DNA of 8,702 nt from positions 1 through 8,702 of the forward strand of contig JAGDMY010000044.1 in the NCBI GenBank assembly GCA_017860765.1, read 5' to 3'. The notes beneath the pieces were generated by a model. The model had not been told where the DNA came from and ran no database searches. It saw only the letters and a program-made list of their open reading frames with translations. The stretch is from Chloroflexota bacterium. Its GTDB lineage: Bacteria > Chloroflexota > Dehalococcoidia > Dehalococcoidales > UBA3254. This document shows positions 1-8,702 of the stretch, piece by piece (the first letter of the stretch is position 1; each line of letters starts with the position of its first letter). The position numbers and the translations under genes are program-made.

Positions 1-102
1 TGGCTGGTATTGCCGTTCTTCCTGGGAATGGTGGCCCTGTTTATCCTGATGATGAGACACGCCAACAGGCATTCCGTCTATGTTGAGCACCGGCCGGGAT
101 AG
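1..102 (+). CDS. C-terminal end of an integral membrane protein (partial)
   Basis: Frame 1 is open from the window edge to a TAG stop at 100-102 and encodes the last 33 residues of a protein whose start lies outside. The visible part is one hydrophobic helix of about 18 residues (from WLVLPFF to FILMM) followed by a short polar tail of about 15 residues rich in Arg and His. This is the usual ending of a multi-pass transporter, for example a major facilitator family protein with its last helix and a cytoplasmic tail, but a membrane anchor subunit would look the same. The family cannot be decided from 33 residues. It lies upstream of the molybdenum enzyme genes in the same direction, but a 209-bp gap with its own promoter separates them, so co-transcription is not required. 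Confidence 0.6.
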   Translation, partial: WLVLPFFLGMVALFILMMRHANRHSVYVEHRPG

Positions 103-215
103 AAAGAATCGCAGCTTCACAATCCGTCGCTTAAGTGGTAAACTGAAGGAAACCTTTTCAAAAATACCGGTTTGATTCCACAAAACGGACATTGAGAGCC
201 AAATTCGTGCCTATA

Positions 216-231
216 TGTGACCCAGGTCACA
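216..231. promoter_or_regulatory. CRP/FNR-family operator, TGTGA-N6-TCACA
   Basis: The 16-bp sequence TGTGACCCAGGTCACA has 7-bp half-sites (TGTGACC / GGTCACA) that are exact inverted repeats around a 2-bp centre. It matches the classical CRP consensus TGTGA-N6-TCACA completely. It ends 6 bp before the -35 element of the promoter at 238-266, which puts its centre about 50 bp upstream of the expected start. That position suits activation by a CRP/FNR-family protein. The regulator is not encoded in the window, so its ligand (cAMP, oxygen, CO, NO or another signal) is unknown. Confidence 0.75.
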
Positions 232-237
232 AATAAT

Positions 238-266
238 TTGAGTATCGATAGGTTATGAATTATAAT
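238..266 (+). promoter_or_regulatory. Sigma-70-type promoter for the molybdenum enzyme operon
   Basis: A -35 element TTGAGT (238-243) and a perfect -10 element TATAAT (261-266) are separated by exactly 17 bp. Transcription should start near 273, giving a leader of about 40 nt before the ATG at 312. The CRP/FNR-type palindrome lies immediately upstream, so the promoter is probably regulated although its core elements are already good. Confidence 0.75.
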
Positions 267-311
267 AGTGGCTGTTTGGGCGAATAAGTACTCTGAAAGG
301 AGAGAGATTGA

Positions 312-2954
312 ATGGCAGAAAGAAGTAGAGAGTCCAAAACCAGGGGCATTGCTCAGGTTGACAATACCGTCCTCAAGTCTCTGGCGCTGGGAGGCATACT
401 CGGCGGAGGGGGCGAGTGTGTGGTGGATGTTAAGGACGGAAAGGCCGTCAGAGTCAGGCCCTTCCATTATGACTGGAAATACGATAAAAAGACATTTAAC
501 GCCTGGAAGATGACCAGGAACGGCAAAACACTGGGGCCTTTAATGAAGTCGCTCCCCAGTCCTTTTTCGCTGGCCTACAAAAAGAGGACATATTCACCCA
601 ACCGCATCAAATATCCTCTGATGAGAGTAGACTGGGACCCCAGGGGTAAAAGGAACCCGCAGAATCGCGGCATAAGTAAGTACAGGAGGATCTCCTGGGA
701 GGAGGCCTCTTCTATTGTGGCCAGCGAGGTCAAGAGGGTCCAGAAGAAGTATGGCCCGCTGGCTATCCTGGTCCAGGGAGACGGGCATGGCGAATGCAAG
801 ACCATCCACACTCCCCACGGCCATTCAGCCAGGCTGCTGGACATGATGGGCGGCTTCACCCAGCAGGTAAGAAACCCTGACAGCTGGGAAGGCTGGTACT
901 GGGGCAGCAAGCACGTCTGGGGACAGGGTTTCCAGGGCATGATGTCTCCGGCTGCCAACCTGATCAAGGATATTTCAGAGAATAGCGATATGGTGCTGTG
1001 CTGGGGCTGCGATGGTGAGACGACTCCCTGGGGTTTTACCGGGCAGTATGCCACGCGCGTCCTGTTTTTCTGGAACCAGGCTGGCATCAAGCAGGTCTAT
1101 ATCTGTCCGGATGTCAACTACGCGGCGGCCGTCCACGCCGATAAATGGATTCCGATTTTGCCCAATACCGACGCCGCTCTGCAGCTGGCCATAATCTATA
1201 TCTGGCTGAAAGAGGGCACCTGGAAGAAGGACTACATCAGGACCCATGCTGTGGGGATGGATAAGGTCAGGGACTATGTCCTTGGCGAGGAAGACGGTAT
1301 TCCCAAAACGCCGGAGTGGGCTTCCAAAAAGTGCGGCGTTCCGGTATGGACCATTAAAGCTCTCGCCAGAGACTGGGCCAAGAAAGCCACTTCGGTGATC
1401 CATTACTTCGGTGGTTCGTATATTCGCGGTCCATTCTCCCATGAGCCGGCCCGGCTGGAATGTATCCTCCTGGGGATGCAGGGACTGGGTGGGCCTGGCG
1501 TCCATCAATGCCAGATCACCTACTTTGGAATGCCCCGGGCCGAAGGCCTTAAGAGCGTCCGCTTCTTTAATCCGGCACTGAGCGAGCGACTGAAGAAGCC
1601 CTGCCGCATGACCATCGACGCCTGGGGGAAGCAGCTCATACCGAAGACCTTGATCCAGGATGCGATCCTGAAACCACCGCTCACATTCATGGGCAGCGGA
1701 GGACAGGAATCCCAAACTGAGGACCAGTTTATCAAATATACATATCCCATCGAGAAAGAGAAGGGCGGCACCGAAGTCCATATGATATGGACGGACACCC
1801 CCTGCCGCATAACCTGCTGGAACCACGGCAACTGGACGATCGACGCCTTCCAGGACCCCAAGATCGAGTGCGTGGTAGCGCAGCATCCGTGGCTGGAAAA
1901 CGAGTGCCTCTACGCTGACATTATCCTGCCAGCCAACACCACCCTGGAGGTGGAGGATATCGTGACCAACACCCGGCAGGGCCCCCATTTCCAGAGCGTC
2001 GCTCTGCAGGAACAGGCTATCGCGCCCATTGGAGAGTCCAAGAGCGATTATGAAGTAGTACTGGAGGTCGCCAAGAAGCTCGATATGGGCGAGCAATTTA
2101 CCGAGGGAAAGACCACCCTGGACCTGGAAAAAGAGGTCTATAAAAATATGGGGCTGGACAATTTCATAACCTGGAAGGAATTCGAGGATAAGAAGTATTT
2201 TGTATTTCCGGTGGCCAAGGACTGGGAGCAAGACCCGCCGGGATTCCGGAAATTCTACGAAGACCCCAAGAACAATCCCCTGCAGACTCCGACCGGCAAA
2301 CTGGAGTTTTACTCACAGAGACTGGCTGACCATTTTCCCGATGACAGGGAGAGGCCGCCTTATCCGAAGTGGATCGAAAAGAGTGAGACTCACGATGAGC
2401 GGCTGTCGAGTGAAAGAGCGGCGATGTTCCCCTTGCTGTTGATGTCCAACCACGGCCGCTGGCGCACCCACGCTCAGGGCGACGATATCAGCTGGACCCG
2501 GGAAACAGTCACCTGCAAGGTACTGGGTGCCGACGGCTACAAATACGAACCGGTCTGGATTCATCCGCAGGATGCTGAAAAGCGCGGCATCAAAGACGGC
2601 GACATCGTCAAGGTCTTCAATGAGAGGGGTGTCGTCCTCTGTGGAGCCCGGGTCTGGGAGCGGATAATGCCCAATGTTGTCTATGTTGACCACGGTGCAC
2701 GCCACGATCCCATTATAGATACCGTCGACCGCGGCGGAGCCATCAATACCATCGCCCCTGACGGGCTCACTTCCAAGAACTGTGTCGGTCAGGCCACCAG
2801 CGGATATCTGGTAGATGTTCAGAAGGTCACCGAAGGTGACTGGGATACCTGGCGCAAGAAGGACCCCGAGTTATTCGAGGCAGCCTTTAAACGGGAATAT
2901 GACCCCGGATCGGGTCTGCGTTTCAATTCCTGGGTTATTGAAGGAGGAAAATAG
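312..2954 (+). CDS. Transhydroxylase-like molybdopterin oxidoreductase, large subunit
   Basis: This 880-aa protein belongs to the DMSO reductase superfamily and is closest in character to the large subunit of pyrogallol-phloroglucinol transhydroxylase (AthL, about 875 aa), which moves a hydroxyl group between phenols at a bis-MGD molybdenum centre. The N-terminus (about residues 30-50, GGGGEC then VKDGKAVRVRP) lacks the usual four-Cys Fe-S motif, as in AthL. The PDSWEGW motif at 189-195 contains Asp190-Ser191, matching the Asp174 and Mo-ligand Ser175 recalled for AthL; His159 fits its His144. ADIILPANT lies at 535-543, and a C-terminal molybdopterin dinucleotide-binding domain covers about 700-840. 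There is no twin-arginine or other signal peptide, so it is probably cytoplasmic. AAGGAG at 297-302 lies 9 nt before the ATG. The small subunit gene follows after 1 nt. The family is fairly certain; the substrate is unknown. Acetylene hydratase is less likely because it carries an N-terminal Fe-S cluster. Confidence 0.9.
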   Translation: MAERSRESKTRGIAQVDNTVLKSLALGGILGGGGECVVDVKDGKAVRVRPFHYDWKYDKKTFNAWKMTRNGKTLGPLMKSLPSPFSLAYKKRTYSPNRIKYPLMRVDWDPRGKRNPQNRGISKYRRISWEEASSIVASEVKRVQKKYGPLAILVQGDGHGECKTIHTPHGHSARLLDMMGGFTQQVRNPDSWEGWYWGSKHVWGQGFQGMMSPAANLIKDISENSDMVLCWGCDGETTPWGFTGQYATRVLFFWNQAGIKQVYICPDVNYAAAVHADKWIPILPNTDAALQLAIIYIWLKEGTWKKDYIRTHAVGMDKVRDYVLGEEDGIPKTPEWASKKCGVPVWTIKALARDWAKKATSVIHYFGGSYIRGPFSHEPARLECILLGMQGLGGPGVHQCQITYFGMPRAEGLKSVRFFNPALSERLKKPCRMTIDAWGKQLIPKTLIQDAILKPPLTFMGSGGQESQTEDQFIKYTYPIEKEKGGTEVHMIWTDTPCRITCWNHGNWTIDAFQDPKIECVVAQHPWLENECLYADIILPANTTLEVEDIVTNTRQGPHFQSVALQEQAIAPIGESKSDYEVVLEVAKKLDMGEQFTEGKTTLDLEKEVYKNMGLDNFITWKEFEDKKYFVFPVAKDWEQDPPGFRKFYEDPKNNPLQTPTGKLEFYSQRLADHFPDDRERPPYPKWIEKSETHDERLSSERAAMFPLLLMSNHGRWRTHAQGDDISWTRETVTCKVLGADGYKYEPVWIHPQDAEKRGIKDGDIVKVFNERGVVLCGARVWERIMPNVVYVDHGARHDPIIDTVDRGGAINTIAPDGLTSKNCVGQATSGYLVDVQKVTEGDWDTWRKKDPELFEAAFKREYDPGSGLRFNSWVIEGGK
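2941..2947 (+). promoter_or_regulatory. Ribosome binding site that fixes the small-subunit GTG start
   Basis: AAGGAGG lies inside the last codons of the large subunit gene, 8 nt before the GTG at 2956. The same reading frame is open back to an ATG at 2815, but that would overlap the large subunit by 140 bp, has no such site, and adds residues unlike a ferredoxin start. Starting at 2956 gives the typical VKVFVHDGSICNGC opening and suggests translational coupling to the large subunit. Confidence 0.85.
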
Positions 2955-2955
2955 A

Positions 2956-3765
2956 GTGAAGGTATTTGTACATGATGGATCGATTTGCAACGGCTGCTAT
3001 TGCTGCCAGATCGCCTGCAAGGACGAGCACGTAGCCAATGACTGGACACCCTATGCCAAGCCCCAGCCGGATACCGGCCAGTTCTGGCTGAAGATGACGG
3101 AAACGGTTAGAGGACAGGTACCCCGGGTCAAGGTGGCCTACACTCCTATCATGTGCGCTCACTGTGATGACGCCCCCTGCATGAAAGCCTGCAAAGTGGA
3201 AGGCGCCATCTATAAAAGAGAGGACGGGCTGGTCATTATAGACCCCATTAAATGCACCGGCTGCAAGAGCTGCGTGGATGCCTGCCCTTCCAGGTCCATC
3301 TATTTCAATGATGACCTCAACCTCGCCCAGAAATGCACCGGCTGCGCCCATCTCCTGGACAGCGGCTGGAAAGAGCCCCGCTGCGTAGATGCCTGCCCGA
3401 CTCTGGCCCTCAAGTTCCTGGAAGAATCTGAGGCCAAAGAGCTTATCAAAGGGGCAGAGTTCCTGGCGTCACAGGCAAAAATCCAACCCCGGGTGTATTA
3501 TCTCAACCTGCCCAAGAGATTTATTGCGGGCACCGTCTATGATCCGGTAGAGAAAGAAGTCATCATCGGGGCTACGGTTACGCTGGTAGAGGAAGGGGAC
3601 GGCAAGAAACCCTTGACCGCCAAGACAGATAGCTATGGCGATTTTGAGTTCGAGAAACTGCCCGTCGGCAAATTCGACCTGACGATCGAGAAGGGCAAGA
3701 AGTCCAAGAGCATCAAGGTCAGCACCGAGAAAGATATCAGCCTGGGCGATATCCCGTTGACCTAA
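2956..3765 (+). CDS. Transhydroxylase-like iron-sulfur small subunit
   Basis: This 269-aa electron-transfer partner of the preceding molybdenum subunit is close in length to AthS of Pelobacter transhydroxylase (about 275 aa). The first 150 residues form a DmsB/NrfC-like double ferredoxin with four complete motifs: Cys11/14/17/21, Cys67/70/75/79, Cys100/103/106/110 and Cys127/130/143/147, enough for four [4Fe-4S] clusters. Cys16 is additional. After a linker, residues about 190-269 (from FIAGTVYDP to the end) look like a carboxypeptidase-regulatory or Cna-B-like beta-sandwich, with the TDSYGDFEFEKLPVGKFDLTI pattern split over residues about 225-246. A C-terminal domain of this kind is a hallmark of the transhydroxylase small subunit. 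There is no signal peptide or membrane segment. The gene starts with GTG 1 nt after the large subunit stop and ends the operon; no NrfD-type anchor follows. Retaining the third Cys motif differs from AthS, as discussed in the findings. Confidence 0.9.
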   Translation: MKVFVHDGSICNGCYCCQIACKDEHVANDWTPYAKPQPDTGQFWLKMTETVRGQVPRVKVAYTPIMCAHCDDAPCMKACKVEGAIYKREDGLVIIDPIKCTGCKSCVDACPSRSIYFNDDLNLAQKCTGCAHLLDSGWKEPRCVDACPTLALKFLEESEAKELIKGAEFLASQAKIQPRVYYLNLPKRFIAGTVYDPVEKEVIIGATVTLVEEGDGKKPLTAKTDSYGDFEFEKLPVGKFDLTIEKGKKSKSIKVSTEKDISLGDIPLT

Positions 3766-3790
3766 ACTACGAATCACTCCCTGTTAAGCG

Positions 3791-3824
3791 CAAGGCGAAG
3801 CCCGCCATGGCGGGCTTCGCCTTG
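3791..3824. terminator. Perfect 34-bp palindrome, convergent terminator
   Basis: The 34 bases are a perfect inverted repeat (each arm 17 bases, with CATG at the centre), rich in G and C, so an RNA copy folds into a very stable hairpin. On the plus strand it is followed by a T-rich stretch (TATTGTCTTCTTT, 3825-3837). It lies 26 bp after the small subunit stop and 25 bp after the stop of the opposing MATE gene, so it could serve both. On the minus strand no T-run follows, so it is better as a terminator for the molybdenum operon. Confidence 0.75.
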
Positions 3825-3848
3825 TATTGTCTTCTTTCCAGGCTGCCT

Positions 3849-5285
3849 TCACTCGGCAGGCGCCACGCTTTTCGCGCCTGTCTTTTCCAGGTGGACCCCG
3901 GCTTTTTTCTGCTGCCGGTATTCGCGGTAAATCCAGAGTCCGGCCGTCAGCGCCCCCAAAACATCCGATACCGGCAGGGAAATCCACATCCCGGTCAGCC
4001 CCATCAGTCGTGTCAGAAGAAACAGCCCAGGGACAAAAAAGACCAGCTGGCGGGTAAAGGAAAGCAGCATAGCCACCTTTCCTTTAGAGAGCCCCTGGAA
4101 GGTAGTAATAAAGGCTACCGCAGGTCCGACAAAAACAAAAGTGGAATAGGCAATTCGCATCCCCGGCACTGCAATTTCAATTAGGGCCGGGTCGGGATTA
4201 AAGAAACCCAGGATCTGCCGGGTGAAAATTTCTACAAAGACGGTTAGCAGGGCCATAAAAGCAGCCAGCCATAAGCAGGACAGCCTGACCGCTTTCCACA
4301 GGCGGTCCCACTGCCGGGCACCAAAGCTGAAACCTACGATGGGAAGCAGCCCGTGGGAAGTGCCAATTACGGGCATAAAGGCCAAATCGAAGATCCGCAT
4401 GGCAATTCCCAGGGCGGCTAAAACTATGGAGCCGAATCCGGCGGCGATATGATTGAAAAGGGAAATGACCAGGCTTTCCGTAATCTCAATCACCATGGAA
4501 GGTAACCCTACCTGGTAGATACTTTTAAGGGTTTTCAGATCAGGCCGGCAGTGGCGCAACCGGATTCTATAAGCCGTCTTCCGGCCGAGAATAAATCCCA
4601 GGGCCAGCAGGGCACCCAGGTTGCTGGATATAACTGTTCCCAGGGCAGCCCCGGCGATCCCCATCTCCGGGAAAATCCAGAGGCCGAAAATCAGGAAGGG
4701 GTCGAGAACGGCATTACAGACCTGTGCCAGGATGGTAAACATCATCGGGCGAACAGTATCTCCGGAGGCGTGGAAGACGTTGCGGCTGATAAGGCTGAAG
4801 AAAAACAGCGGCAGGCCGCGGCCGAGCATCGTGAGATACTGTGCGCCGAGGTCTATAATATCGGGCGTGGCCCCGCATAACACCACAATCTGGCGGGGGA
4901 ATAGATTTGTCGCCAGCAGGAAAACGACTCCGATAACCAGGCTCAGAAAGAAGGACTGCCCGGCCGTCTGGTTGGCAGCTGCGACATTCCCTTCGCCGAA
5001 GCGGCGTGAAGCCAGGGCATTGATCCCGATACCGGTGCCCACCCCGATAGCGATGCAAAAAACATAAAAGGGCATTATGACAGTGACCGCGGCTACAGCC
5101 TGGTATCCCAGCCTGGCCACCCAAAAGGTGTTGACCAGGTTGTACAGAGACACCGCGACCATAGAGGTAATACTTGGCAGGCTGAGGCGGACTATCAGTT
5201 TACCCAGAGAGTCAGTCCCTAACCGGGCAGTGGTTTGATGGAGTTTAGCAGGTTCTTCCAGTAGCTTACACCTCTGAAACAGCAC
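3849..5285 (-). CDS. MATE-family multidrug/Na+ (or H+) efflux transporter
   Basis: A protein of up to 478 aa, close to the usual 450-470 aa, with about twelve hydrophobic helices in two similar halves. MATE hallmarks include LSLPSITSMVAVSLYNLVNTFWVARLG in the first helix region, GVGTGIGINALASRRFGEGN after the second, and FHASGDTVRPM and DPFLIFG in the N-terminal half; the family exports drugs or metabolites in exchange for Na+ or H+. The substrate cannot be told. The start is uncertain: GTG at 5285 is the first possible one after the uppS stop in this frame but lacks a clear ribosome site, while an AGAGGTG sequence precedes codon 9 (CTG, 5261). It follows uppS in the same direction after a gap of about 33 bp, so it may be read with the translation operon. 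It converges on the molybdenum enzyme genes. Confidence 0.87.
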   Translation of the reverse strand: MLFQRCKLLEEPAKLHQTTARLGTDSLGKLIVRLSLPSITSMVAVSLYNLVNTFWVARLGYQAVAAVTVIMPFYVFCIAIGVGTGIGINALASRRFGEGNVAAANQTAGQSFFLSLVIGVVFLLATNLFPRQIVVLCGATPDIIDLGAQYLTMLGRGLPLFFFSLISRNVFHASGDTVRPMMFTILAQVCNAVLDPFLIFGLWIFPEMGIAGAALGTVISSNLGALLALGFILGRKTAYRIRLRHCRPDLKTLKSIYQVGLPSMVIEITESLVISLFNHIAAGFGSIVLAALGIAMRIFDLAFMPVIGTSHGLLPIVGFSFGARQWDRLWKAVRLSCLWLAAFMALLTVFVEIFTRQILGFFNPDPALIEIAVPGMRIAYSTFVFVGPAVAFITTFQGLSKGKVAMLLSFTRQLVFFVPGLFLLTRLMGLTGMWISLPVSDVLGALTAGLWIYREYRQQKKAGVHLEKTGAKSVAPAE

Positions 5286-5318
5286 TCTGGCAGCTGGAAC
5301 CGCCGGGGGTCGTTGCTC

Positions 5319-6005
5319 TTATACTCCTCCGAACCGCCTTTGACGGCGGCTGAAAGCCTCCAGAGCGCGTTTGACCTGTGCCGGGGTAAAATCCGGCCAG
5401 AGGACTGCAGTGAAATAATATTCGGCATAGGCCGCCTGCCAGAGCAAAAAGTTGCTGATGCGGATTTCGCCTCCGGTGCGGATCAGCAGGTCGACATCCG
5501 GCATACCGGCCGAATAGAGATAGCTGGCAAAGACTTTTTCATCGATCTGTGCCGGGGGTTTCTTTACTTCAGCCAGCCGGCGGGCAGCGTCCACGATTTC
5601 AATTCGCCCGCCATAATTGAAAGCAAAACTGAGGACCATGCGGGTATTGTTTTGAGTTAAATTACAGGCGCGCACGATAGCCGCCTGCACCCCGGAGGGA
5701 AGCTCAAAAAGCCGTCCCAGATGGCACATCTTCACCCCCTGCCGGTGCAGTTCAGCCGCCTCGCGGTCGATGCTCTCCTCGAGCAAGGTGAAGATCCCCT
5801 GGACCTCTTCGTCAGGACGATTCCAGTTCTCACTGGAGAAGCCGTAGAGGGTCAAATATTGGACATGGTAATCGATGAGGGTAGTAACTACCGAACGTAT
5901 GCGGTTGACGCCTGCCTCGTGACCCGCCAATCGCGGCCAATTGCGCCGCTTTGCCCACCTCCCATTCCCATCCATAATAATCGCCACATGCTGCGGTAGG
6001 CGCAT
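5319..6005 (-). CDS. uppS: Isoprenyl transferase (undecaprenyl diphosphate synthase)
   Basis: This 228-aa cis-prenyltransferase adds isopentenyl units to farnesyl diphosphate to build the undecaprenyl carrier lipid for cell envelope polymers. Every family motif is visible: HVAIIMDGNGRWA at 6-18 with the Mg-binding Asp12, GFSSENW at 55-61, FAFNYGGR at 127-134, RTGGE at 176-180 with RISNFLLWQ following, and WPDF at 203-206. The length is slightly under the common 240-250 aa, but nothing essential is missing. The ATG at 6005 lies 21 bp after the frr stop, and a GAAAGG sequence about 11 nt before it may serve as ribosome site. It ends the conserved rpsB-tsf-pyrH-frr-uppS block; the usual next gene, cdsA, is replaced by a MATE transporter. 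The chain length of the product cannot be read from sequence. Confidence 0.96.
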   Translation of the reverse strand: MRLPQHVAIIMDGNGRWAKRRNWPRLAGHEAGVNRIRSVVTTLIDYHVQYLTLYGFSSENWNRPDEEVQGIFTLLEESIDREAAELHRQGVKMCHLGRLFELPSGVQAAIVRACNLTQNNTRMVLSFAFNYGGRIEIVDAARRLAEVKKPPAQIDEKVFASYLYSAGMPDVDLLIRTGGEIRISNFLLWQAAYAEYYFTAVLWPDFTPAQVKRALEAFSRRQRRFGGV

Positions 6006-6026
6006 TTTACTTTCAACCTTTCCGGG

Positions 6027-6584
6027 CTAAACTGCCATTAGCTCTGTTTCTTTTTCCTGAGCGATATTTTCGGCGATGGCGATATAAGAATCGGTCATTT
6101 TCTGCAGCTGTTCCTGGACCCGTCTGGACTCGTCCTGAGAGATCTGCTTGCCCTTTTCCGCCTTCTTAATCTCCTCGAGAGCATCCCTTCTGAGGTTGCG
6201 TACCGCCACCCGACGTTCTTCCAGCCGCCTGTGGACCACTTTGGTCAGTTCCTGACGCCGCTCTTCGCTGAGCTGCGGTATGCTGAGGCGGATAAGGCGG
6301 CCATCGTTAACCGGATTCAGGCCCAGGTCCGACTTAAGAATGGCCTGCTCAATATTGCGCAGGCTGCCAGGGTCCCAGGGCTGGATAACCAGCAGCCGGG
6401 CTTCCGGGGCGGAGATGCCGGCTATCTGGTTGAGGGGTATCGGCGCACCGGCATATTCAACCTTGAGATGCTCAATCAGGGCCGGGCTGGCTCTTCCGGT
6501 GCGGATAGTAGCCAGCTCCTGCGTCAGTCCCTCGGAGACCGCTTTCATCTTTTTATCGACATTGGTCAATATATTGCTAGCCAT
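6027..6584 (-). CDS. frr: Ribosome recycling factor
   Basis: This 185-aa protein has the standard length of RRF, which with EF-G splits the post-termination ribosome. It shows the RTGRASP motif at 28-34, the beta-rich hinge domain with IPLNQIAGISAPEARLLVI split across about 53-72, and the long charged C-terminal helix ending ENIAQEKETELMAV. The two-domain helical-bundle plus beta-domain order is intact. The ATG at 6584 is preceded by GAGGTG, which overlaps the end of pyrH and ends 6 nt before the start, and the two genes are separated by only 3 nt, so coupled translation with pyrH is likely. uppS follows after 21 bp. Confidence 0.97.
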   Translation of the reverse strand: MASNILTNVDKKMKAVSEGLTQELATIRTGRASPALIEHLKVEYAGAPIPLNQIAGISAPEARLLVIQPWDPGSLRNIEQAILKSDLGLNPVNDGRLIRLSIPQLSEERRQELTKVVHRRLEERRVAVRNLRRDALEEIKKAEKGKQISQDESRRVQEQLQKMTDSYIAIAENIAQEKETELMAV

Positions 6585-6587
6585 CTC

Positions 6588-7328
<741 letters not shown>

Positions 7329-7343
7329 TTAACTGTTGATAGC

Positions 7344-7352
7344 ATTATAGCA
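7344..7352 (-). promoter_or_regulatory. Extended -10 promoter for pyrH-frr-uppS
   Basis: On the minus strand TGC-TATAAT forms a consensus extended -10 element. There is no good -35 box at 16-18 bp (the spaced sequence is about AGAGTG), which is tolerated with an extended -10. Transcription would start near 7337, about 24 nt before the pyrH ATG at 7313. The element begins 6 bp downstream of the terminator stem for rpsB-tsf, so the two elements are tightly packed. Confidence 0.6.
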
Positions 7353-7358
7353 TATGAA

Positions 7359-7392
7359 AAGACCGTCACTCTAGATATTAAATGACGGTCTT
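7359..7392 (-). terminator. Intrinsic terminator after tsf
   Basis: Read on the minus strand, a 10-bp stem (AAGACCGTCA / TGACGGTCTT) encloses a 14-nt AT-rich loop, and the last stem bases run into TTTTCAT. It begins 18 bp after the tsf stop at 7411. The T-run is short, so termination is probably partial, allowing some read-through from rpsB-tsf into pyrH. Confidence 0.75.
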
Positions 7393-7410
7393 AGCAGAGA
7401 TGATCCGCTA

Positions 7411-7926
7411 TTATTTGCCCAATTCGAACCTGGCAAAACGGCTGATAACCACGTTCTCACCGGTTTTGGCGATAATTTCAGTTACCACATCCTGGATGGT
7501 CCTGGAGGGGTCTTTGATGTAAGGTTGAAGCAGAAGGCAAGCGTTCTGAAAATCTATCTCGACGCCGGTGGGACATTCATTTTTTGAAAGGAATTCAGGC
7601 GCCATCGCGGCAACCTGCATGGCGACATTGTGAGCCAATTCCTGAAATTCGGCTGTCCGGGCGACAAAGTCAGTCTCGCAATTGATTTCAACCAGGGCAC
7701 CGATCCGCCCTCCGCTATGAATGTAAGAGGCTACCACGCCCTGTTTAGTGACGCGTCCGGCGGTTTTCTGGGCCTTTATCAGCCCTTGTTTTTGTAAAAT
7801 GTCCAGCGCTTTAGCTTTGTCTCCGCTGGTCTCTTTTAAAGCATTCCGGCATTCCATGATCCCGGCGCCGGATTCCTGTCTGAGTTCTTTGATTTGTTCA
7901 GTTGTAATCTCCAAATTTTCCCCCAA
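7411..7926 (-). CDS. tsf: Elongation factor Ts, short form
   Basis: EF-Ts recharges EF-Tu by promoting GDP release. The protein is up to 171 aa: an N-terminal UBA-like domain (about 6-50, with LRQESGAGIMECRNAL at 15-30) and one core subdomain containing the EF-Tu-contacting TDFVAR motif at 85-90. Proteobacterial EF-Ts is about 280 aa with two core subdomains and a coiled coil; the short form, known from Thermus and Dehalococcoides, has one, so this is not a truncation. The start is a TTG: either 7926 (6 nt after the rpsB stop) or an in-frame TTG at 7914, preceded closely by GGGGGA. The second would remove four residues and give a start nearer to the usual one. The gene is followed by a terminator. 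Confidence 0.95.
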   Translation of the reverse strand: MGENLEITTEQIKELRQESGAGIMECRNALKETSGDKAKALDILQKQGLIKAQKTAGRVTKQGVVASYIHSGGRIGALVEINCETDFVARTAEFQELAHNVAMQVAAMAPEFLSKNECPTGVEIDFQNACLLLQPYIKDPSRTIQDVVTEIIAKTGENVVISRFARFELGK

Positions 7927-7932
7927 TTAAAT

Positions 7933-8702
7933 TTATTCTTCAGGAGCAGCCGTTTCCTGCTCGTCAGTCACCGGTATCGCCGTCGCAGGTGGAGGCGCGG
8001 GGACTGATTCAGGCGCCGCTTCTTCTTTGGGTGCCACAACCTGTATGCCCTTGCCGTCGATGACAGCATCAGCGATTTTTGTGCAAATCAACTTGACCGC
8101 CCGAATAGCATCATCATTGGCAGGGATAATGACACCCAGTTCATCCGGGTTGCAGTTGGTATCGCAGATGGCAACCACGGGGATATCCATCCGTTTAGCT
8201 TCCAATAAGGCGATCTTATCTTTGGTCGGGTCGACGATGAAAAGCGCACTCGGCAGCTTGGTCATTTCCTTGATGCCGCCTAATTGCCGGTTGAGGCGGA
8301 GGATCTCTTCATCGAGCTTGGAAGCTTCCTTTTTCGGAAGTCGTGTGAATTCTCCCTTGGCCCTCTGGTCTTCCAGGCGGACCAGGTGGTCGATGCGGGA
8401 CTGGATGGTGCTGAAATTGGTAAGTGTGCCACCCAGCCAGCGCTGATTGACGTAATGCATCCCGCAGCGCTTGGCCTCCGTCTCGACAGACTCCTGAGCT
8501 TGCTTTTTGGTGCCCACGAAAAGTATCGAGCCGCCATCCGCCACAATTTGCTTCACGAACTCCTGGGCTTTGGCCAGCAGCTTGACCGTCTGCTCCAGGT
8601 CGATGATATGAATACCATTGCGTTTGGTGAAGATATACTTTTTCATCCGCGGATGCCACCCGCTGGCCTGATGCCCAAAGTGGGCTCCGGCCTCCAGCAA
8701 TT
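7933..8702 (-). CDS. rpsB: Small ribosomal subunit protein S2 (partial, N-terminus outside the window)
   Basis: The frame is open to the window edge and the visible part starts [11 protein letters not shown], which in S2 lies about 8-10 residues from the N-terminus; the true start is therefore just beyond 8702 and the TTG at 8700 is not it. S2 motifs include [14 protein letters not shown], the [12 protein letters not shown] block, [38 protein letters not shown] split over two stretches, and [15 protein letters not shown]2 joins the 30S subunit late in its assembly. The C-terminal tail of about 35 residues after the core is rich in Glu, Ala and Pro, a flexible extension of variable length in this family. 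tsf begins 6 nt after the stop. Confidence 0.97.

Follow-up and report, generated by a model that had tools for sequence, protein, structure and literature searches.

A two-gene molybdenum enzyme of a Chloroflexota bacterium falls in a sister clade of pyrogallol-phloroglucinol transhydroxylase and may perform redox chemistry on phenols

Pyrogallol-phloroglucinol transhydroxylase (AthLS) requires 1,2,3,5-tetrahydroxybenzene as a co-substrate (PMC13039779), and resorcinol hydroxylase, whose large subunit RhL is described as cytoplasmic, serine-ligated, and part of a single RhL/PgtL family, hydroxylates resorcinol as an electron donor (PMC10100899). Among Chloroflexota, pyrogallol-phloroglucinol transhydroxylase-like complexes have been described in RBG-2 and RBG-1351 (PMC3971608) and three pyrogallol hydroxytransferase genes in DEH-C11 (PMC4959651). 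Here, we describe a two-gene unit (312–3765, + strand) in an 8,702-nucleotide (nt) stretch of Chloroflexota DNA (GenBank assembly GCA_017860765.1, contig JAGDMY010000044.1, positions 1 to 8,702; the whole stretch is called the window). A reading made from the sequence alone had recognized a two-gene molybdenum enzyme, and this is confirmed, as an 880-residue molybdenum-bis(molybdopterin guanine dinucleotide) (Mo-bisMGD) subunit and a 269-residue iron-sulfur (Fe-S) subunit have AthL/AthS-like features. On balance, we favor the view that this molybdenum enzyme is soluble and cytoplasmic, that it belongs to a clade (W) beside that of AthL (A), and that it catalyzes a net two-electron hydroxylation, with water, or dehydroxylation of a phenolic ring, because of the catalytic core shared with AthL, the retained electron wire, and the gene company of some relatives.

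The large subunit carries the PF00384 and PF01568 domains together with PF21423 ("AhtL-like_1st"), which barely passed its cut-off in the window (27.6 bits against 27) and had no match in 14 control genomes, and it falls below the curated cut-off of the dimethyl sulfoxide (DMSO)/trimethylamine N-oxide (TMAO) reductase family. By sequence, its best solved match was the Pelobacter acidigallici transhydroxylase (4v4c; E = 3.7e-123; 37% identity to AthL in a profile alignment), clearly above the TMAO and DMSO reductases, and Ser191 of the window aligns with AthL Ser175. An AlphaFold2 model (mean predicted local distance difference test score, 87.8; predicted template modeling score, 0.90) also returned 4v4c first by two methods, with a slim margin over DMSO reductases (Z of 37.8 versus 36.0). 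As the sequence-only reading had it, an N-terminal Fe-S cysteine motif was not seen in the large subunit on inspection by eye, the PDSWEGW motif is present, and the Fe-S subunit has a beta domain. Its assignment of the pair to the cytoplasm holds as well: a twin-arginine translocation (TAT)-like motif is absent from the first 60 residues of the window large subunit (Escherichia coli TorA and DmsA controls were positive), and neither subunit has a strongly hydrophobic stretch, the highest 19-residue Kyte-Doolittle means being 1.37 and 1.01. Among the large subunits of relatives, TAT-like motifs were found in 3 of 108 from W and in 0 of 45 from A. Catechol dehydroxylases had also been counted as distant members of the family, and here the reading needs amending: they are not close relatives by a published tree, which puts them with acetylene hydratase (PMC7028382). 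Acetylene hydratase matched the window large subunit far less well (E = 1.4e-10) than AthL did.

Two clades of transhydroxylase-like large subunits were recovered, one (W) containing the window and the other (A) containing AthL (SH-like approximate likelihood ratio test [SH-aLRT] support of 100 and 99 for 88 and 40 rows, respectively). When E. coli DmsA, TorA, and BisC were used to root a tree of 38 rows, the two clades came out as sisters (bootstrap/SH-aLRT, 100/99) and the window stood outside A (100/100), with the root as the least sure part and DmsA on a long branch; in a separate tree, W and A together were split from five DMSO-type rows with a support of 100. Large subunits shorter than 780 amino acids (aa) were excluded from the 88 + 40 row tree and from the pocket alignment below. 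A further clade, X, from two genomes (L148:4179–6767 and L137:9932–12505), branches outside W and A, has a four-cluster small subunit, and has its catalytic Asp replaced by Ser or Cys. The window thus groups with the AthL side and not with another DMSO reductase clade, and the proposed transhydroxylase kinship survives in part: W is the sister of the AthL clade, but the window lies outside the transhydroxylases and has lost their conserved pocket tyrosines and arginine. Relatives, W and A unsorted, are widespread: the genome collection yielded at least 590 matched stretches that encode one. Within W, a clostridial group (L057–L059 and L061–L064) has a longer large subunit (934 to 964 aa) and a recurrent downstream gene (cluster c9) that is radical-S-adenosylmethionine-like, as named from its sequence. 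Unlike the window, several mostly Thermodesulfobacteriota W loci (L021, L033, L035, L056, and L072) have an upstream gene (cluster c21) that we take to be MoeA-like.

The two clades share a catalytic core. When 229 W and 165 A sequences were aligned profile to profile (L148 excluded and L137:9932 counted as W), AthL His144 was present in every row, Asp174 in 224 of 229 W and 163 of 165 A rows, and Ser175 and Trp176 in all. The residues that we take to line the AthL substrate pocket (Tyr152, Arg153, Trp354, Tyr404, Phe468, and Tyr560) behave otherwise. Tyr152 is invariant in A (165/165) and is Thr (171/229) or Ala (39/229) in W; Arg153 (136/165 in A) is mostly Pro in W (199/229); and Phe468 (148/165 in A) is Gly (118/229) or Ala (76/229). 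Tyr404 (165/165) and Tyr560 (161/165) are replaced or unaligned in W, the loop at 404 being uncertain, as a plain first alignment placed Tyr there in at least 11 of 211 W rows among the commonest patterns listed. The window has Thr, Pro, and Gly at positions 152, 153, and 468 and no partner for Tyr404 or Tyr560; Trp354, which varies in A as well (109/165), is not kept either. In turn, W has its own nearly invariant set (e.g., Cys502, Trp503, Lys736, and Trp749) at positions that are fixed to different residues in A. With the core kept, the AthL pocket residues lost, and an invariant set of its own, W therefore seems to combine the family core with a different binding site.

A second difference lies in the small subunit. 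Its best solved match is AthS of 4v4c (residues 52 to 314 of the listed open reading frame [ORF]; E = 6.3e-50), but the resemblance read from the sequence fails at the clusters, since the window has four [4Fe-4S] sites and AthS three. In what we take to be the usual DmsB-type numbering, cluster 3 of the window is ligated by Cys79, Cys100, Cys103, and Cys106, and AthS has A, K, L, and G at these four sites. The alignment comprised 105 small subunits immediately downstream of large subunits, in an analysis in which identical copies were merged (183 to 166); L148 and L137:9932, sorted by score as A and W, were moved to clade X by the tree, and counts are given after this move (before it, the counts were 69 of 76 W and 1 of 29 A pairs). 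All 16 cysteines were present in 68 of 75 W pairs, and cluster 3 in 0 of 28 A pairs. Among the other seven W pairs, five had one cluster-3 ligand replaced, L078 lacked cluster 3, and L129 was missing the start of the alignment. Because a plasmid DmsB and both X members also have four clusters, this arrangement appears to be ancestral and the loss specific to A. The plain reading is that AthLS, catalyzing a transfer that is redox neutral overall, can dispense with a through-wire and that W enzymes still move electrons in or out. In the order of the window, three A-type large subunits of 832 to 834 aa (L135:7176–9680, L138:5561–8059, and L139:7416–9914) had no recognized Fe-S subunit beside them within the retrieved stretch and represent a possible one-subunit form. 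Small-subunit absence rates from the "other" gene class were not used, as several were overlap artefacts (e.g., L017), and neighbor cluster c2, an apparent antisense reading of the small subunit, was likewise discarded as an artefact.

In the mechanism that we propose, the Mo-bisMGD bound by Ser191 would carry the oxygen, His159 and Asp190 would provide acid-base chemistry, and two electrons would travel, in either direction, along the four-cluster chain of the small subunit between the active site and a soluble carrier; for certain relatives, and perhaps for the window as well, the meta-hydroxylated product would join a phloroglucinol-type reductive ring opening. Hydroxylation is slightly favored over dehydroxylation because resorcinol hydroxylase, described as of the same family, performs it (PMC10100899). 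The sequence-only reading had suggested a hydroxyl transferase or dehydroxylase acting on phenols; a phenolic substrate still appears likely, but the fourth cluster site of the window Fe-S subunit favors net redox chemistry over hydroxyl transfer.

The gene company of some relatives points toward ring opening. In Clostridium scatologenes, the phloroglucinol pathway uses a short-chain dehydrogenase/reductase (SDR; phloroglucinol reductase), a cyclase-family cyclohydrolase, a 3-hydroxyacyl-CoA-dehydrogenase (3HCDH)-like enzyme, and a lyase (PMC10470551). The W genes at locus L053, from a Pseudomonadota metagenome-assembled genome, are in tandem, and after them come a LuxR-type gene, a pair of "cyclase" family genes, and genes for an SDR and a 3HCDH-like protein. 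The best solved match of this SDR is 5g4k (7.6e-48; next other protein, 1.6e-39), presumably a phloroglucinol reductase structure although its record name is generic. On contig C18 of the same genome (G158), about 14 kb separates the W genes from the start of two divergent A pairs, and 6 to 10 kb past these pairs comes another SDR/cyclase/3HCDH set. Its enzymes are 38 to 54% identical to their paralogues in the first set, and its SDR also matches 5g4k first. A related genome (G161; L049 and L168) has close homologues of the W-side set (83 to 91%), and its W and A genes, too, are about 14 kb apart. The two parallel modules, one per clade, suggest that W and A feed similar ring-opening routes from different phenols. 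Tandem cyclase pairs also occur at the W loci L025, L026, L035, L037, and L038, in genomes with 2 to 4 cyclase genes; the cyclase count covered 16 genomes, of which eight had been picked for a cyclase at the W locus, and hence gives no rate. A gene for the lyase, the fourth family of the pathway, was not identified among the neighbors scanned. The SDR of L094 was rejected as a phloroglucinol reductase, its best solved match being a gluconate dehydrogenase and not 5g4k, and the G158 SDRs alone are offered as reductase-like.

W genes are also linked to A genes. Of 79 W loci, retrieved by the window large subunit from matched stretches and not picked for A genes, 12 have an A gene within 5 kb; six of these share one divergent arrangement in Actinomycetota, so the 12 are not independent events, and the others come from Bacillota, Thermodesulfobacteriota, Actinomycetota, and Chloroflexota with other gene orders. 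When W and A were split by PF21423 score (A above about 58 bits, in agreement with loci sorted by full length), both occurred in 9 of 9 genomes of one scanned set. Within the order of the window, PF21423 exceeded its cut-off in 22 of 151 genomes, with up to 16 copies. By score, five genomes have W and no A match (G021, G044, G113, G160 [Moorella stamsii], and G166) and one, G052, has A and no W; most of these are incomplete drafts, in which absence is weak evidence, yet A is not always required for W. One conjecture, which we regard as a long shot, is that W acts as a redox starter, hydroxylating a trihydroxybenzene with water, with the electrons leaving through its intact four-cluster wire, to yield the 1,2,3,5-tetrahydroxybenzene used as co-substrate by the A-type transhydroxylase. 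This would explain both the repeated adjacency of W and A and how A could afford to lose its wire, but the genomes with W and no A weigh against it as the sole role of W.

Several observations weigh against a W enzyme with net redox activity on polyphenols. No activity of a W member is described in the literature examined. The window itself shows no cyclase linkage; its order was represented by five genomes, which carry one to three cyclases apiece but never on a contig with a listed W gene, so the link is shown for other phyla and not for this order. No A gene was present in the retrieved stretch at 67 of the 79 W loci, many of the stretches being short. Cluster count is no strict test, given the five W members with one replaced ligand, and the W pair of Moorella stamsii (L078:2095–5498) has undergone its own loss of cluster 3. 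Two loci (L119:9893–15894 and L122:33–6016) have the order W large subunit, A large subunit, and a single small subunit (12 and 15 Cys, respectively). Finally, A pairs on Pseudomonadota plasmids (L111–L113) lack cluster 4 too, leaving two full cluster sites, and these members from aerobes may be redox hydroxylases despite having two clusters; genes of the vicinal oxygen chelate family and for fumarylacetoacetate hydrolase lie near them.

The alternative that fares best, although we consider it unlikely, is a true transhydroxylase that, like AthLS, moves a hydroxyl between two phenols without net redox change, though with phenols other than those of AthLS and with the extra cluster as an unused relic. 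AthLS is the closest characterized relative, its molybdenum-ligand motif and acid-base residues are identical, and the window has neither an anchor nor a partner oxidoreductase; moreover, the published annotation of such Chloroflexota genes is pyrogallol hydroxytransferase (PMC3971608, PMC4959651). Set against this, the A-conserved Tyr152, Arg153, Tyr404, Phe468, and Tyr560 are replaced or unaligned in W, and cluster-3 ligands persist in 68 of 75 W pairs, a sign that the wire may be under selection.

It is distinctly unlikely that the pair is an orthologue of resorcinol hydroxylase RhLS, or of the 3,5-dihydroxybenzoate hydroxylase of nitrate reducers, acting on a 1,3-dihydroxy ring, with W as the RhL branch. 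RhL, described as a cytoplasmic, serine-ligated member of one RhL/PgtL family with resorcinol as its electron donor (PMC10100899), would suit a four-cluster wire, but it could just as well belong to an A subclade with large subunits of about 1000 aa. A proteobacterial A member of this subclade was used as a query; among the 120 matches listed, of which the majority had no name or a generic one, names of the "pyrogallol hydroxytransferase" type occurred and resorcinol hydroxylase did not. Should resorcinol hydroxylase fall in W, the clade would be partly known already.

An S- or N-oxide reductase is highly improbable. The W and A clades do lie beside the DMSO/TMAO reductases, but the tree joins W to A and not to DmsA, TorA, or BisC; the AthL-type His-Asp-Ser-Trp core, PF21423, and the C-terminal domain of the small subunit are common to the window and AthLS; and the missing signal peptide and the ring-opening linkage of some relatives are unsuited to a respiratory role. 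Barely credible is a molybdenum enzyme for another substrate class, in which case the linkage to ring genes seen in distant relatives would be irrelevant to the Dehalococcoidales lineage, given that W and A genes lie nearly contiguous (19 to 111 nt apart) in five loci of the order of the window, even though neighbors in that order vary (rhodanese-type flavoprotein, major facilitator superfamily [MFS] transporter, class II aldolase, and nitroreductase) and the window slot is itself variable.

The features of the window are collected in the table. The two-gene unit is bounded by a promoter-like site (238–266) and a terminator-like hairpin (3790–3825); 3 promoter-like sites were found in positions 1 to 3900 versus 2.3 expected by chance, and 7 terminator-like hairpins versus 4.0. 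The likely start of the small subunit is the GTG at 2956, one base past the large-subunit stop (the ORF list has 2815), giving 269 aa compared with 274 in AthS. Upstream regions of 200 or more bases, one for each unique large-subunit gene that had them, were scanned for the operator (119 regions: 29 A and 90 W-scoring, the latter including the window and two DMSO-type outgroups). Apart from the window, perfect TGTGAN6TCACA was found in 0 of 87 W regions; one plasmid DmsA-type outgroup had one mismatch, and the others resembled 2,000 random stretches. CRP-type control as a family trait was accordingly dropped, the perfect operator being limited to the window among the 119 regions. Of the regulated promoter proposed from the sequence alone, there remain a candidate palindrome and a promoter-like site, with one palindrome, not conserved in relatives, as the support for regulation. 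The description as an isolated operon is true of the window, but a share of relatives adjoin A-type pairs or ring-opening genes; as had been noted, the window genes include neither a maturation chaperone nor a membrane anchor.

Ribosomal protein S2 indicates the host, for which a Chloroflexota origin had been suggested. It is 83 to 84% identical to that of G013 and G051, members of the order of Chloroflexi RBG_13_51_18 (138 of the 151 genomes of this order were matched), against 50 to 61% for nine chosen genomes outside the order, with some order members at just 61 to 65%; by this comparison, the host is a relative of that order. On the other strand, positions 3849 to 8700 hold a multidrug and toxic compound extrusion (MATE) transporter gene, uppS, frr, pyrH, tsf, and rpsB; the tsf product, EF-Ts (7411–7926), is of a short form (171 aa). 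The upstream gene (1–102) is presumably PrsW-like. In G013, the slot between this gene and uppS is occupied by three other genes, which we take to encode an MFS transporter, a UspA-like protein, and a CAP-like protein, so the location of the pair is a variable slot. Compared with the window large subunit, the closest W counterparts in the retrieved G013 and G051 stretches reach just 67% and 52% identity.

Table. Coordinates of features in the window.
Feature	Position	Strand	Basis
Upstream membrane-protein gene, 3' end; left border of variable slot	1..102	+	58% identity over 31 aa to end of 227-aa ORF in L162
Perfect palindrome TGTGACCcaGGTCACA, 7-bp arms, CRP/FNR-like operator candidate	216..231	.	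1 match, 0/200 shuffles
Sigma-70-like promoter TTGAGT-17-TATAAT	238..266	+	10/12 consensus positions; consensus match only
Ribosome-binding site AGGAG, large subunit	298..302	+	Sequence
Large subunit, Mo-bisMGD oxidoreductase, W clade (sister of AthL), 880 aa	312..2954	+	ORF, domains, tree
His159 codon (= AthL His144)	786..788	+	H in 229/229 W and 165/165 A rows
PDSWEGW, residues 189–195: Asp190, Ser191 (Mo ligand by homology), Trp192	876..896	+	Profile alignment
Ribosome-binding site GGAGG, small subunit	2943..2947	+	Sequence
Small Fe-S subunit, 269 aa, GTG start	2956..3765	+	Domains, AthS match, start analysis
16 ligand cysteines for four [4Fe-4S] clusters (residues 11–147)	2986..3396	+	Cysteine alignment
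C-terminal CarboxypepD_reg-like beta domain	3523..3711	+	PF13620, E 2.2e-10
Intrinsic-terminator-like hairpin, 16-bp stem, closing unit	3790..3825	+	7 such hairpins versus 4.0 expected

Genes of the W and A types are named TMAO reductase or pyrogallol hydroxytransferase, and these names underlie published accounts of the metabolism of sediment Chloroflexota. The W clade, with its kept wire and changed pocket, should not be taken as a sign of pyrogallol fermentation without further thought. If these enzymes do hydroxylate or dehydroxylate polyphenols with water, they would provide an oxygen-independent redox entry to ring breakdown in anoxic habitats. The contrast between W and A also offers a direct test of why a molybdoenzyme loses one cluster of its wire, and the Moorella stamsii genome (L078), with its single PF21423 match, is a natural test of the wire argument. 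In the literature found, with most subscription papers outside the search, nothing separates the W clade or notes the cluster difference.

Several DMSO/TMAO-type reductases are exported or have no Fe-S subunit. The DMSO, TMAO, and biotin sulfoxide reductases (DmsA, DorA, TorA, and BisC) have the fold and the Ser ligand in common with the window, and DmsB has a four-cluster relay, but DmsA, TorA, and BisC form a separate clade, and the plasmid DmsA-type protein and a Vibrio homologue do not have the AthL-type His-Asp-Ser-Trp pattern. The catechol dehydroxylases (Dadh, Hcdh, Cadh, Dodh, and Cldh) resemble the window pair in using bis-MGD and probably in acting on phenols, and some are predicted to be soluble two-subunit enzymes, but the published tree, in which they cluster with acetylene hydratase and apart from AthL, sets them apart (PMC7028382). 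Resorcinol hydroxylase RhLS of Azoarcus anaerobius, compared by its description, is likewise cytoplasmic and Ser-ligated and performs a net redox hydroxylation of the ring (PMC10100899). AthLS (PGTL/PGTS) is alike in its two soluble subunits, the Ser ligand in PDSWEGW, the core His and Asp, the missing N-terminal cluster, and the C-terminal beta domain of the small subunit; the window differs from it in having four cluster sites instead of three, in the loss of the AthL pocket residues Tyr152, Arg153, Trp354, Tyr404, Phe468, and Tyr560, and in its place in the sister clade.

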